DNA of 64,000 nt, taken from the NCBI RefSeq assembly GCF_032116555.1, contig NZ_CP134949.1, positions 2,356,001 through 2,420,000 of the forward strand, given 5' to 3'. Origin of the DNA: Halobaculum sp. XH14 (lineage in GTDB: Archaea > Halobacteriota > Halobacteria > Halobacteriales > Haloferacaceae). This document shows, piece by piece, positions 8,596 through 37,486 of the stretch. A program made the translations under genes and the position numbers. Below the pieces are notes generated by a model, which searched no databases, was not told the DNA's origin, and was given only the letters and a program-made list of their open reading frames with translations. Each line of letters starts with the position of its first letter. Position 1 is the stretch's first letter.

Positions 8596-9129
8596 TCAGT
8601 ACGTCGGTTCGTCCTCGGGTTCCCCGTCCCGCTGGTTCACGACCCGCGCGAAGGTGAACAGCGCGTCCGACACCCGGTTGAGGTACGCGATGGCCGCCCC
8701 GTTCACTGGTTCGTCGTTCGCCAGCGCGACCGCGCGACGCTCGGCGCGCCGGGAGACGGTCCGGGCGTGGTGCAGTTTCGCCCCCGCGTCGCTCCCCGAG
8801 GGGAGCACGAAGTTGCGGAGCGGTTCGAGCTCCTCGTCGAGTTCGTCGATCCAGTCCTCCAGCTGTTCGGTGTGTTCGGGACGGACCTGCGGGTCGTCCT
8901 CGTCTGGGTCCGGGTTGGCGAAGTCCGCCTGAACGACGTGGAGGTGGTTCTGGACCGCCCGGAGCATCTCGTCGACGTCGTCATGACCCGTCGGCCGGAC
9001 CGTGCCGATCAGCGCGTTCGCCTCGTCGACCGTGCCGTACGCCTCGATCCGGGGCGACGTCTTCGACACGCGGGACATGTCACGGAGGTCGGTCTCCCCC
9101 TCGTCGCCCCGCCCGGTGTACACCGGCAT
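8596..9129 (-). CDS. pduO: Cob(I)alamin adenosyltransferase, PduO type
   Basis: 177-residue PduO-family ATP:cob(I)alamin adenosyltransferase, which moves the adenosyl group of ATP onto reduced corrinoid to make adenosylcobalamin. Seen are the N-terminal ATP-binding loop TGRGDEGETDL, the signature EAYGTVDEANALIG (about residue 28-41), a helical core, and RTVSRRAERRAVAL, the conserved Arg/Glu helix of the trimer active site. The start MPVYTGRGDEG at 9129 replaces a long Arg-rich in-frame extension that is not protein-like. The upstream glutaredoxin gene ends 2 nt before, so the two are probably cotranscribed. Confidence 0.93.
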   Translation of the reverse strand: MPVYTGRGDEGETDLRDMSRVSKTSPRIEAYGTVDEANALIGTVRPTGHDDVDEMLRAVQNHLHVVQADFANPDPDEDDPQVRPEHTEQLEDWIDELDEELEPLRNFVLPSGSDAGAKLHHARTVSRRAERRAVALANDEPVNGAAIAYLNRVSDALFTFARVVNQRDGEPEDEPTY

Positions 9130-9131
9130 CG

Positions 9132-9371
9132 TCAGGCGAGCGTCCGATCGACGTACTCCAGGATGTTCGCGGACTCGTTCATCGTCACGCCGCGCTCGCC
9201 GTCGACGAGCACGGGGACGGCACGCTGGCCGCTCACGCGCTTGACCTCGTCGCGCTCGGAGTGCATCGCGCCCGTCCACTCGGTCTCGTACTCGACGTCC
9301 GCGTCCGAGAGCGCGTCGTGCACCTTCTCACACCACGGACAGCCGTCCAGCGCGTACAGCGTGATGGACAT
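9132..9371 (-). CDS. Glutaredoxin-like thiol-disulfide protein
   Basis: 79-residue glutaredoxin-fold protein. The redox motif CPWC follows the first strand (MSITLYALDGCPWCEKVH), and the cis-Pro region is QRAVPVLVDGER, so fold and active site are complete. It would reduce disulfides or carry thiols in the cytoplasm, with gamma-glutamylcysteine the likely thiol partner in haloarchaea (inferred). Length is normal for the family. It is the first gene of a tight pair with the cobalamin adenosyltransferase, 2 nt apart. That adenosyltransferase needs cob(I)alamin, so a redox partner is a possible but unproven link. Confidence 0.88.
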   Translation of the reverse strand: MSITLYALDGCPWCEKVHDALSDADVEYETEWTGAMHSERDEVKRVSGQRAVPVLVDGERGVTMNESANILEYVDRTLA

Positions 9372-9661
9372 GTTCCCGCCTTGGACGAGCGTGGGGAAGT
9401 AGCTTCGGACCCCGCGGGTGACACGCCCGGTCGACCGTGTCGAACGCGTCGACGAGTAAGGGTCGCGCCCGTTCCGCGTGCCAGCGGGTCGACCCGCCCT
9501 CCGGACGCGACGACCGGCCCGAATCTGGAGTTCAGCCCCGTTTCCCGGCGTGGAACGTCGTCTCGGGCTACCGTCCGCGAGAACAGTCCGACTCGCGTCA
9601 GACGGACGTCGGACGTTCCGAGACGCTTATGAGACGTGAAATGAATCGGTTCCGCGATTCG

Positions 9662-10636
9662 ATGGAACCGAGCGACGGCGTGCCGGAACGGGAGCGGGAG
9701 CGTGCCGTGGCCGACCTCGGAGCGGGGTCGCTCCCGGCCAGCGTCGAGCGGCTGGTCGGCCGCTACGACCGGATCATCCCCGAGCGCGGCCGGTACGTGT
9801 GGGACTGGCTGGCCGACACGCTCCCCACGTTCCGGCTCGGCTCGGTCGTCCCCGAGCACGAGGCCCGGGCCGACGAGGCGCGGCTGCTCGTCTCCGTGTT
9901 CGTCACGACGCTCAACGACCTCTCGGACCGGCGTGAAGACGACGACGCGTTCGAGACGGCCGCCCTGATCCCCCAGGGGGAGTTCGACGCCGCGACCGCG
10001 GCCGATCCGGCGGTCGAGCTGGCGGCCGACGCCTGGGACGCGCTCCTCGACCGGCTGGAGGGAGCACCACGGTTCGACACCCATCTGGCGACGCTGCGCC
10101 GCGATCTGGCCTGGACCGTTCGCGCCCAGCGTCACGCCGCCTGGTCGGCGCGGCGACCCGCGGAAACGACCTACGAGGAGTGTCTCCAGGAACAGGCTCC
10201 GACGATGTGTATGGACGCGCTCGCCACGGTCGATCTGATGTGTTCGCCGACGTTCGACCCGACCGAGGAGCGCGCGGTCCGCGAGGCCGTCGCGCTCGTC
10301 GAACCGCTCGGCCGCATCGGCAACTGGCTCACGACCTGGGAGCGCGAGCTCGAGGAGGGTGACCTCGCGAACGGGATCGTCGTGAAGGGCGTCGAGGACG
10401 GCGTCGTCTCCCCCGAGGCGGTCCGCCGTGCGAGCGCCGAACCGACGGTTCGTCCCGCGTTCCGCCGTCGGATACGCGAGGCCGGGGTCGAACTGGCCGT
10501 CGAGGAGGACTGGCGACGTCGGTACGAACGGGCGCTCGGCCACGAATGGGAGACGGGGACGGTCGATCTCGATTCGTTCGTCGCCGCCATGGACGACGTC
10601 CGGCGGCGCCATGACGCGAGCCGCGGGAAGAAGTAG
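9662..10636 (+). CDS. Class I terpene synthase-like protein
   Basis: 324-residue soluble, alpha-helical protein. An Asp-rich motif NDLSDRRED at residues 85-93 fits NDxxDxxxD. A second motif NWLTTWERE at 221-229 fits NxxxTxxxE, the NSE triad that binds metal in class I terpene synthases. An Arg-Tyr pair follows at 287-288. Length and the 136-residue spacing match bacterial class I terpene cyclases, which use Mg-diphosphate chemistry on prenyl diphosphates. There are no membrane segments, so it is not a UbiA protein despite the first motif. The start at 9662 (MEPSDGV) is preferred over 9629 and 9641 because codons before it lack the usual G/C third positions. Function is inferred only. Confidence 0.55.
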   Translation: MEPSDGVPERERERAVADLGAGSLPASVERLVGRYDRIIPERGRYVWDWLADTLPTFRLGSVVPEHEARADEARLLVSVFVTTLNDLSDRREDDDAFETAALIPQGEFDAATAADPAVELAADAWDALLDRLEGAPRFDTHLATLRRDLAWTVRAQRHAAWSARRPAETTYEECLQEQAPTMCMDALATVDLMCSPTFDPTEERAVREAVALVEPLGRIGNWLTTWERELEEGDLANGIVVKGVEDGVVSPEAVRRASAEPTVRPAFRRRIREAGVELAVEEDWRRRYERALGHEWETGTVDLDSFVAAMDDVRRRHDASRGKK

Positions 10637-10683: not shown

Positions 10684-12846
10684 ATGGACGACGGAATCGA
10701 CGTCGAGGAGCTGTACGACCTCCGGCTCCTCACCGATCTCGCACTGTCCCCCGACGGCGGGCGCGTCGCGTTCGTCGCCAGCGAGTCCGATCCCGACGAG
10801 GACGCATCCCGCACGGGTCTGTACGTCGTCCCCGCCGACGGCTCGCGCGACCCGCACCGGCTGACGCGCGCCTCCGCCGCCTCCGCGCCGACCTGGGGAC
10901 CCGACGGCGACACGCTGGGCTTTCTCGCGGCGCGCGACGAGGACCTCGACCGGACTGCCGGTCGGTCCGGGGACGCGGCCCGGAGCGACGCCGAGAACGG
11001 CGAGGACGACGAGTCCGGGGAGGACGGTGACGGCGACGAACCCGACCGGAACGGCGAAACCGACGGCGGCGGGAGCGACGAGCCGAAACCGCAGGTCTGG
11101 ACGTTCGACCTCGCGCTGGGCGGCGACGCGCGCCAGGAAACCGGCTTCGAGCACGGCGTCCGCGAGTTCGACTTCGCCCCCGACGGCGACCGCCTGGTCG
11201 TCTCGGCCCGCGACCCGACCGACGAGGAGCAGTCGTATCTCGACCGGCGGGAGGAGGACGGCCCCATCGAGGTCACCAGGCTCCAGCACAAGCGCGACGG
11301 CGCGGGGTGGCTCGACGACGTGACGACGTACCTGTTCGTGGTCGACCGCGAGTCGGGCGAGACCGATCGGCTGGACGACGCCTACGGGGCCGGTTCCAGC
11401 GAACCGCTCGCGGGACTCCAGCCTGCATGGGGACCGACCGACCGCATCGCGTTCACCCGCTCGGCCGCCCGGAACCCGGACGACGACGGCTCGATGGACG
11501 TGTTCACCATCGGGCCGGACGGCTCCGACCTCCGGCGGCTCACCGACGGCTCGCTCCGCTGTTCCGTGCCGACGTGGAGCCCCGGGGGCGACCGCCTGGC
11601 GTTCGCCGGCGGGAACCACGAGAACTGGTACGAGCCGACCGGGGTGTACGTCGCCGAGGACGAGGCGGACGACGGCGGGGCCGACGCCCGGTACGAGTCG
11701 CTCTCGGCCGGCCTCGACCGGACGCTGGCCCGAGTCGGGACGATGGCGTGGCTCGACGGGGGGACGGTGGTCGCGCCCATCGCGGACGAGGCGTGGACCA
11801 GGCTGGCGGTCATGCCGCTCGACGGCGAGCCCCGCCGGACCTACGAGCGTCAGGGTCGCGGGCGGACCATCTCGGCGTTCGACCACGCGGGCGACACCGT
11901 CGCGCTCGGGCTCACGACGCCCGACGACACCCCGCAGGTGTTCGCGCTCGACGCCGGCGAACTCCGGGACGGCGAGACGGGCGGCCCCATCCGGCGGCTC
12001 ACCTCGCTCAACGCCGCCTGGGTCGCGGACGCGCCGCTGCCCGACCACGAGGTCGTCTCCTTCGAGAACTCTGATCTGGAGGAGATCGAGGCGGTCGTCT
12101 ACTACCCGTCCGAGTTCGACCCCGAAGCGGACGGCCCGGCCCCGGCCATCGCGTCCATCCACGGCGGGCCGATGAGCTACGACGCGCCGGGGTTCCGCTT
12201 CACGACCGCCTGCTGGACCAGCAGGGGGTACGTCGTCGTCAAGCCGAACTACCGCGGGTCGACCTCCTACGGCCGCGCGTTCTCGGAGTCGCTGAAGGGG
12301 AGCCGCGGCGACCTCGAATCGGACGACGTGATCTCGGCGATGGACCACCTCGTCGCGGAGGGCGTCGCCGATCCGGACCGGCTGTTCTGTACCGGCTTCA
12401 GCTACGGCGGCATCACGACGGCCCACGTCGTCACCAGGACGGACGAGTTCGCCGCCGCCGCACCCGAGCACGGCGTCTACGACTTCTACTCCAACTTCGG
12501 CACCGACGACAACCACAACTGGCACGAGTGGGAGTTCGGGATGCCCTGGGAGAACGAGGAGACGTACCGCGACATCTCCTCGATCTCGCGGGTCGACCGG
12601 ATCGACACGCCGCTGCTCATCACGGCGGGCGAGGAGGACTGGCGCTGCCCGCCGACGCAGGCCGAACAGCTCTACGTCAGCGTCCGCAAGCGCGGCGTTG
12701 ACGCGAAACTCGTCATCTACCCGGACGAGCACCACAACATCGGCGACCCCAAGCGGGCGACCCACCGCATCGAGGAGCTGACCGAGTGGTTCGAGGCGCA
12801 CGACCCGGCACTTTCGGGCGACGACGAGGAGCAAAACGAGGACTGA
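10684..12846 (+). CDS. S9 family prolyl oligopeptidase / acylaminoacyl-peptidase
   Basis: 720-residue serine peptidase of family S9. Residues about 1-440 form a beta-propeller of PD40-type blades (LALSPDGGRVAFVAS, FDFAPDGDRLVVS, PTWSPGGDRLAFAGG), interrupted near residues 95-125 by a very acidic insert. The C-terminal alpha/beta-hydrolase has the nucleophile Ser573 in GFSYGG, Asp652 in GEEDWRCPP and His683 or His684 in YPDEHHNIG. It should cleave short peptides in the cytoplasm. No signal peptide is present. The start is ATG at 10684, with MDDGIDVEELYDL the family-like N-terminus. It begins 47 nt after the terpene synthase-like gene on the same strand. Confidence 0.93.
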   Translation: MDDGIDVEELYDLRLLTDLALSPDGGRVAFVASESDPDEDASRTGLYVVPADGSRDPHRLTRASAASAPTWGPDGDTLGFLAARDEDLDRTAGRSGDAARSDAENGEDDESGEDGDGDEPDRNGETDGGGSDEPKPQVWTFDLALGGDARQETGFEHGVREFDFAPDGDRLVVSARDPTDEEQSYLDRREEDGPIEVTRLQHKRDGAGWLDDVTTYLFVVDRESGETDRLDDAYGAGSSEPLAGLQPAWGPTDRIAFTRSAARNPDDDGSMDVFTIGPDGSDLRRLTDGSLRCSVPTWSPGGDRLAFAGGNHENWYEPTGVYVAEDEADDGGADARYESLSAGLDRTLARVGTMAWLDGGTVVAPIADEAWTRLAVMPLDGEPRRTYERQGRGRTISAFDHAGDTVALGLTTPDDTPQVFALDAGELRDGETGGPIRRLTSLNAAWVADAPLPDHEVVSFENSDLEEIEAVVYYPSEFDPEADGPAPAIASIHGGPMSYDAPGFRFTTACWTSRGYVVVKPNYRGSTSYGRAFSESLKGSRGDLESDDVISAMDHLVAEGVADPDRLFCTGFSYGGITTAHVVTRTDEFAAAAPEHGVYDFYSNFGTDDNHNWHEWEFGMPWENEETYRDISSISRVDRIDTPLLITAGEEDWRCPPTQAEQLYVSVRKRGVDAKLVIYPDEHHNIGDPKRATHRIEELTEWFEAHDPALSGDDEEQNED

Positions 12847-36416: not shown

Positions 36417-36839
36417 TTACGAGTTCTCGATGGGTGCTGCCTCAATGACTCCCTCGCTCCGTACTGTCACTTCAAAGTCCTCGTATGAGAACGAGATACT
36501 ATCACAGTTCCCACGATCGGTAGCTGACTCCGTAGCCAATTCATCAAGCGCGTCTGTATCAATGGCGGACTGAAGCGGCGTCAAGTCCCATGGTTCCCTG
36601 CCAAGCGCGGACGCAACAACTTCAACGACTGCTAAACTCGTCAAGTCCTGAGTACTGTCGTACGCCGCCCGGAAACTGTCTTGGTCCGCATCGAATTCAA
36701 CAACACTCATCGACTTCGTAATCTCAACAGTCATCGATTTCTCTTCAGGAGGCTCCATCAACACAATGTTGGCATTCTCTGGGGAAGAGGGTGGCTTTTG
36801 CTCCCGCAACATTCCTTTATGAGTGGTTTCCGGGCTCAC
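36417..36839 (-). CDS. HalOD1 output-domain protein
   Basis: 140-residue protein. Its second half (about residues 45-135: VVEFDADQDSFRAAYDST, LTSLAVVEVVASALGREPWDLTPLQSAIDTDALDELA, ISFSYEDFEVTVRSEGVIEA) is a HalOD1 domain, a haloarchaeal module found at the end of signal transduction proteins. The N-terminal 35 residues are weakly conserved. The GTG at 36839 overlaps the stop of the upstream regulator (GTGA), so coupling is likely. ATG at 36734 or 36710 are possible shorter starts. Role inferred as an output partner of the neighbouring regulator. Confidence 0.72.
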   Translation of the reverse strand: MSPETTHKGMLREQKPPSSPENANIVLMEPPEEKSMTVEITKSMSVVEFDADQDSFRAAYDSTQDLTSLAVVEVVASALGREPWDLTPLQSAIDTDALDELATESATDRGNCDSISFSYEDFEVTVRSEGVIEAAPIENS

Positions 36840-37486
36840 TCGTCGGGAGCGATGAGGGTACTCGCTACGAGACGTCGAAAACCGCGCTGTAACCGTGATG
36901 AAACCGCCTGCCGGGTGATTCCGAGTTCGTCGGCGAGATCCTGTTGCGTGGCGTCTCGCGGCGAGTCAAAGTGCCCCCGGGAATACGCCAGTACCAACGC
37001 ATTCCGTTGACCCTCGGTCAGATCGTATTCTCGATCGGACTTGAGCGACGAAATCGCGTGCAGCTCAGTCAGCTCAAGCGGGATGTCGTGGTCCTGGCAA
37101 TACGTCTGGAAGTTCGAGAGGTCTTGTTGCTCGTTTGCACGGACTTCAAACGTCCATCGCGTATCGTCTCCAATCCCAGAAACGAGTGAAATATCGGTAT
37201 TGACGACCGCCGTCAGAACACTCTCATAGTCCAGGTTCCAGTCGATACGGACGAGCATCTGTTCCTCCAGTTTATCGATTACTTTGACCTGGTCAATCCC
37301 GAGATCTACACTCAAATCTGTGTCGAGTTTATCCGTATCATCGGCGGAAATCCAGAAATAGGGGACGACTGCCTCACCGGTTGGGACAACCCGGTCTAAC
37401 TCGATAGTCACATCGGCTAATTGCTCGAAAACAGCACTCAACGGGAAATCCGCCTGCTCGATGGTGAACGAGGCCTCGATAGCCAT
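36836..37486 (-). CDS. Bacterio-opsin activator-type HTH regulator
   Basis: 216-residue transcription regulator of the Bat/HTH_10 type. Residues about 1-150 form a sensor-like beta-rich domain (MAIEASFTIEQADFPLSAVF, VRIDWNLDYESVLTAVVNTD). The C-terminus is the HTH_10 domain: LTEGQRNALVLAYSRGHFDSPRDATQQDLADELGITRQAVSSRLQRGFRRLV. Such proteins activate or repress specific operons in haloarchaea. Upstream, GATCAGTAG (37491-37499) and CTACTGATC (37524-37532) form a 9-bp inverted repeat. The HalOD1 gene follows with a 4-nt overlap. Confidence 0.88.
   Translation of the reverse strand: MAIEASFTIEQADFPLSAVFEQLADVTIELDRVVPTGEAVVPYFWISADDTDKLDTDLSVDLGIDQVKVIDKLEEQMLVRIDWNLDYESVLTAVVNTDISLVSGIGDDTRWTFEVRANEQQDLSNFQTYCQDHDIPLELTELHAISSLKSDREYDLTEGQRNALVLAYSRGHFDSPRDATQQDLADELGITRQAVSSRLQRGFRRLVASTLIAPDE

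Follow-up and report, generated by a model that had tools for sequence, protein, structure and literature searches.

The window analysed here is a 64,000-nucleotide stretch of Halobaculum sp. XH14 DNA. On its forward strand lies a gene for a 324-residue protein predicted to be a divergent class I terpene synthase, for which we identify the following neighbouring genes, promoter element and protein motifs, listed in order of position:

8596–9129, minus strand: cobalamin adenosyltransferase (PF01923), an upstream neighbour
9132–9371, minus strand: glutaredoxin/GST-N-like protein, a divergent neighbour conserved beside the gene in the window genus and in Candidatus Halobonum
9627–9632, plus strand: putative TATA-like promoter element, TTATGA, some 30 bp upstream of the ATG; four relatives have a comparable A/T-rich element in the same place
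9662–10636, plus strand: coding sequence of 324 amino acids (stop codon included in the coordinates), predicted divergent class I terpene synthase on the basis of its open reading frame, Pfam, predicted fold and start comparison
9914–9940, plus strand: Asp-rich motif NDLSDRRED, residues 85–93, a predicted Mg2+ site; almost every other member reads DDxxE here
10202–10216, plus strand: predicted G-helix break, residues 181–185 (between helices 171–182 and 184–193); the window clade always has T181 and D185, where other members have N and mostly F
10313–10315, plus strand: R218, one helix turn before N221 and invariant across haloarchaeal members
10322–10348, plus strand: NSE-type motif NWLTTWERE, residues 221–229, a predicted second Mg2+ site, with R228 at the position held by the diphosphate-contacting K/R in known enzymes
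10520–10525, plus strand: Arg-Tyr pair, residues 287–288, present in the window protein without conservation in the family
10684–12846, plus strand: S9 prolyl-oligopeptidase-type peptidase, the downstream neighbour

The open reading frame at 9662–10636 is a genuine gene, and its GC contents at the three codon positions (0.77, 0.50 and 0.88) are typical of a haloarchaeal gene. The start codon at 9662 is supported by sequence comparison: of four close relatives, three (L027, L028 and L001) have a stop that closes the frame no more than 60 bp upstream, and all five loci compared (the window and four relatives) carry a TATA-like box some 30 bp 5' of the start. Two in-frame ATG codons further upstream, at 9629 and 9641, were ruled out as alternative starts, as each overlaps or adjoins the promoter-like element and in three close relatives a stop interrupts the frame upstream.

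The initial annotation had placed NDxxDxxxD at residues 85–93, NxxxTxxxE at 221–229 and an Arg-Tyr pair at 287–288, all in a protein free of membrane helices. Each of these positions is exact, and the absence of a membrane helix is borne out by hydropathy, the best 19-residue mean being 0.83. A loose version of the motif triple with the correct spacing appeared in 5 of 20,000 composition-preserving shuffles of the sequence (0.025%). Across 46 aligned family rows the invariant residues are D86, D191, R207, R218, N221, W222, T225, W226, R228, E229, E232, D234 and D302; the complete NSE/DTE triad, (N/D)xxx(S/T)xxxE, is thus invariant as N221, T225 and E229, and the family consensus reads LDDxxE...GNWxTTWERExxEGD. 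The Arg-Tyr pair does not hold up as a family feature, being present in just 13 of the 46 rows, and near it W284 and D302 are conserved. The Asn that opens the Asp-rich motif, which had been noted as unusual and as fitting the UbiA pattern, is real, but it is a subclade-specific replacement (NDxxD in the window subclade) within a family whose motif is DDxx[E/D] in nearly all members, and UbiA is ruled out as the family of a protein with no membrane helices and no UbiA Pfam match.

Pfam family PF19086 (Terpene_syn_C_2) matches 27 of 35 family members at E ≤ 0.1, with a best value of 1.5e-8, and the matches extend over a stretch containing both metal-site motifs. Against a cut-off of 23.7 bits, the window protein scores just below at 21.9 bits, its clade likewise falling slightly short, and the Haloarcula vallismortis member (L006) scores 34.5 bits. 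Sequence searches of the PDB returned no terpenoid enzyme for the window protein, a 35-row family profile, the Haloarcula relative or a Methanosarcina-type relative, and searches of NCBIfam and PHROGs gave weak, unrelated or uninformative matches only.

For comparison with bacterial enzymes we assembled eight terpene synthases from annotated plasmid records, R-linalool synthase among them; where a geosmin-synthase stretch served as the query, the evidence was confined to the database records retrieved with it. The alignment of these eight is invariant at D79 and D80, R172, N218, S222, and R308 and Y309. A profile comparison with the archaeal family places LDD on LDD and NWLTTWERE on NDxxSxxKE, albeit with a weak score and low probability (E = 0.05 for the family, 0.0026 for the window protein alone). 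The archaeal family resembles bacterial PF19086 enzymes (the geosmin synthase N-terminal domain and the 10-epi-cubebol, hydropyrene and linalool synthases) in its length and single all-helical domain, in having an Asp-rich motif near residue 85, an NSE-type motif near 220 and a G-helix break, in the K/R that precedes the final Glu of the NSE motif, and in the weak but significant PF19086 match of most members. It differs in carrying Trp at the second position of the NSE motif (NW, where the bacterial enzymes mostly have ND) and in invariant residues of its own (R42, W49, D191, R207, R218 and D302), and the window clade differs further in the replacement of the first Asp by Asn. The diphosphate-sensor Arg, 46 residues ahead of the NSE Asn in the eight bacterial enzymes, is matched by no conserved Arg in the archaeal family, in a region where the alignment is weak; like this Arg, the Arg-Tyr pair is invariant in the eight bacterial enzymes and is not conserved in the archaeal family. 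We take both features as typical of bacterial enzymes and not as defining for class I overall, and R218 and R207, invariant in haloarchaeal members, are candidate stand-ins for the missing basic residues. In FgGS, an enzyme of known structure, the diphosphate is contacted by R300, by Y301 and by the Arg that precedes the final Glu of NDYFSFDRE (R216), and R228 of the window protein occupies the same place as R216 (PMC7414894).

As a check on its reading, the initial annotation had proposed structure prediction and a fold search, and these yielded an all-helical prediction whose PDB matches are class I terpene synthases. The AlphaFold model of the window protein (pLDDT 92.8, pTM 0.91) contains helices only, and in a search of the PDB class I terpene synthases fill ranks 1–38 of its fold matches, while prenyl-diphosphate synthases come in only below these. 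E-values start from 5.3e-4, with TM scores mostly of 0.5–0.6 and rmsd of 6–9 Å, values which suggest that the modelled fold agrees in topology more than in detail. An independent model of a canonical relative (pLDDT 94.0) has 42 PDB fold matches at E ≤ 0.001, the best being 10-epi-cubebol synthase (3.6e-5) and the geosmin synthase N-terminal domain (6.4e-5), somewhat stronger E-values than those of the window protein. In the predicted model the Asp-rich motif forms the C-terminal end of helix 64–90 and the NSE-type motif the C-terminal end of helix 200–231, with a helix break at 183; this order of motifs and break is that expected of helices D, G1/G2 and H.

Because the motifs are conserved, PF19086 matches most members and a confident model finds class I folds, we consider the window protein very probably a soluble enzyme from a divergent archaeal branch of the class I terpene synthases, a predicted function that upholds the initial proposal of a prenyl-diphosphate cyclase or a related enzyme. 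Such an enzyme would bind a linear prenyl diphosphate, most likely GGPP or FPP, in its helical barrel, where Mg2+ on the NDxxDxxxD and NxxxTxxxE motifs would hold the diphosphate; the substrate would then be ionised to an allylic carbocation by the Mg-diphosphate mechanism, and a cyclised or rearranged hydrocarbon or alcohol would be released. GGPP and FPP are both available in haloarchaea, and one or the other is a natural guess for the substrate. The fold matches point to no single chain length for that substrate: the top ones are diterpene synthases for the window protein and mostly sesquiterpene synthases for a relative.

An enzyme of the same fold could also ionise a prenyl diphosphate without cyclising it, giving a linear alcohol or hydrocarbon, or transferring the prenyl group to an acceptor, possibly with a methylated product where a methyltransferase is encoded next door. 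We judge this unlikely, since cyclisation is the usual outcome among characterised class I enzymes with such a size and motif set and no acceptor-handling gene is consistently linked to the family, even though the fold and motifs are equally compatible with it, R-linalool synthase with its linear product falls within our bacterial comparison set, and a SAM methyltransferase gene directly adjoins the synthase gene in Halobellus limi and at two loci outside the haloarchaea. The ability of terpene cyclases to act as aromatic prenyltransferases (PMC7414894) also counts in its favour.

The family to which the predicted terpene synthase belongs is widespread. A scan of one genome per species recovered 25 relatives, and whole-genome searches found the family in 20 of 60 near genomes and in 39 of 393 in the phylum; within the class it is present in 87 of 292 sampled genomes (30%) and 35 of 77 genera. 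Some members occur in methanogens, the host type being confirmed by the MCR alpha gene, and in the Methanosarcina-like copies (L082–L085) the NSE motif has diverged further (e.g. NTVNTWKRE) and R218 is missing. All six annotated plasmid homologues are labelled "hypothetical protein".

Gene neighbourhoods were read by profile searches of six-frame translations. The genus and Ca. Halobonum share part of the neighbourhood of the window locus, and no terpenoid-pathway gene is found in it. We therefore rejected the cobalamin adenosyltransferase, glutaredoxin-like and S9 peptidase genes as a pathway: they represent conserved synteny in the genus with no terpenoid link. Elsewhere in the family, regulatory genes are frequent neighbours. 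Among 48 haloarchaeal loci outside the window clade, HalOD1 lies within 3.5 kb of the synthase gene at 25, BAT/HTH_10 at 20 and either at 26; counting histidine kinases as well, the total is 30 of 48, and these regulator-linked loci are not independent of one another. None of the five window-clade loci, the window included, has HalOD1, BAT or a histidine kinase within that distance. Genomes carry 6–22 copies of HalOD1 and 18–39 of HTH_10, and we estimate that each would fall within 3.5 kb by chance at a few per cent of loci. Arrangements vary by lineage, from BAT>HalOD1>TS (TS being the terpene synthase gene), divergent BAT with HalOD1, and TS>BAT>HalOD1 to TS>winged-helix>HalOD1 and TS>PAS kinase; the methanogen arrangement is PAS kinase>TS, L077 and L082–L085 being flanked by PAS sensor histidine kinases. 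Regulator-linked examples that include small stand-alone HalOD1 proteins are found at L006, L016, L017, L113, L125, L114 and L127, among others.

This repeated re-association in differing arrangements supports a functional link between synthase and regulators, and suggests that an environmental signal prompts the regulator-linked relatives to make their terpene product. Since BAT–HalOD1 pairs occur at other places in these genomes too, the two may form a general module that has the synthase as one target among several. In the window itself, a HalOD1 gene lies beside a gene for a BAT/HTH_10-type regulator at 36417–37486 on the minus strand, about 26 kb from the terpene synthase gene and with no evidence of linkage to it. 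Genes of other kinds also recur beside the family: a class I SAM-dependent methyltransferase gene directly adjoins the synthase gene in three distant lineages (L081, L082 and L113), where its product might methylate the substrate or the terpene, and at L091 and L092 the synthase gene adjoins one or two copies of a gene for a small protein of 175–197 residues (family c21).

A tree of 68 sequences places the window protein in a clade (SH-aLRT 100) with two same-genus proteins and two of Candidatus Halobonum tyrrellensis; the stem of this clade is long, at 1.33 changes per column. One genome, apparently of Ca. Halobonum (G020), carries three paralogues, two of this subclade and one distant DDxxE copy. 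All five clade members have NDxxDxxxD, whereas all others have DD, or once ED, save one divergent fragment. We defined subclade-specific positions as those with one residue throughout the clade and a different one shared by at least 80% of the remaining haloarchaeal members, which gave nine (clade/others): 74 R/K, 85 N/D, 89 D/E, 96 A/T, 158 H/Y, 181 T/N, 185 D/F, 214 E/Q and 309 A/G. Most of these lie on helices D, F, G and H, which are expected to line the cavity. With D85N and eight further changes mostly on presumed cavity helices, the subclade enzyme probably differs from its relatives in the product it makes or the substrate it uses. Combining these changes with the neighbourhoods of the wider family, we tentatively advance a reading that we regard as possible but not favoured, in which the haloarchaeal terpene is an environmentally regulated or signalling product: the family would have been wired repeatedly to BAT/HTH_10, winged-helix and PAS-kinase regulators and HalOD1, and the active site of the subclade rewired (D85N, F185D, Q214E and others) towards a new product.

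The same subclade features could instead reflect a loss of ordinary catalysis, with D85N weakening the metal site and the protein taking on a binding or regulatory role. The replacement of the first Asp in all five members, the length of the stem branch, the eight other fixed changes at otherwise conserved positions and the missing regulator neighbours are all compatible with such a loss. It is nonetheless improbable, as D86, D89, D93, N221, T225, R228 and E229 are kept in all five, which is unlike relaxed constraint, and NDxxDxxxD binds metal in active UbiA enzymes (PMC7414894). Because the metal-site and NSE residues stay fixed, we favour changed function over decay.

Two further identities were rejected on fold, motif and family evidence. 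A trans-isoprenyl diphosphate synthase of the GGPP/FPP synthase type, extending chains with IPP, shares the fold superfamily with the predicted terpene synthase, and human GGPP and FPP synthases rank, with PcIDS1, further down the fold matches; the second motif is however of NSE type with no second DDxxD, and no polyprenyl synthetase Pfam family matches even at E = 10, making this identity very improbable. A membrane UbiA-type prenyltransferase, whose NDxxDxxxD motif the window protein shares, can be dismissed with near certainty, given that UbiA enzymes are membrane proteins with DxxxD as their second motif, whereas the window protein has no hydrophobic helix and no UbiA Pfam match, carries an NSE-type second motif and finds its fold matches among soluble class I enzymes.

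Most known class I terpene synthases come from plants, fungi or bacteria; archaea are rich in isoprenoid lipids and carotenoids, yet few terpene synthases have, to our knowledge, been described from them. Present in some 30% of sampled haloarchaeal genomes and nearly half of sampled genera, as well as in some methanogens, the family would be a sizeable unexplored source of terpenes and of salt-tolerant enzymes. Its recurrent linkage to sensory regulators offers a concrete hypothesis on when the product is formed, and the NDxxDxxxD subclade is a natural experiment on the change tolerated in a class I metal site. Novelty cannot be claimed for archaeal terpene synthases in general, because a preprint by Samusevich et al. 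claims, going by its title as cited in PMC12797696, terpenoid biosynthesis in archaea. In the literature searched we found no description of the haloarchaeal family, and the phrase "archaeal terpene synthase" was unmatched. A Halomicroarcula genome paper reports two "terpene clusters" per genome (PMC8600319), which may be carotenoid genes.

A different haloarchaeal terpene synthase is plasmid-borne in Actinarchaeum halophilum (NZ_CP071308; L122, 4365–5756) and Halocatena marina (NZ_CP109980; L123, 4344–5783). Like the window family, these proteins are haloarchaeal, match PF19086 and lack annotation as terpene synthases, being labelled "hypothetical protein" and "SRPBCC family protein". They form a separate lineage, distinguished by an N-terminal SRPBCC/polyketide-cyclase-like domain fused to a strong Terpene_syn_C_2 match (E about 1e-46) and by a polyprenyl synthetase gene directly after the fusion gene.
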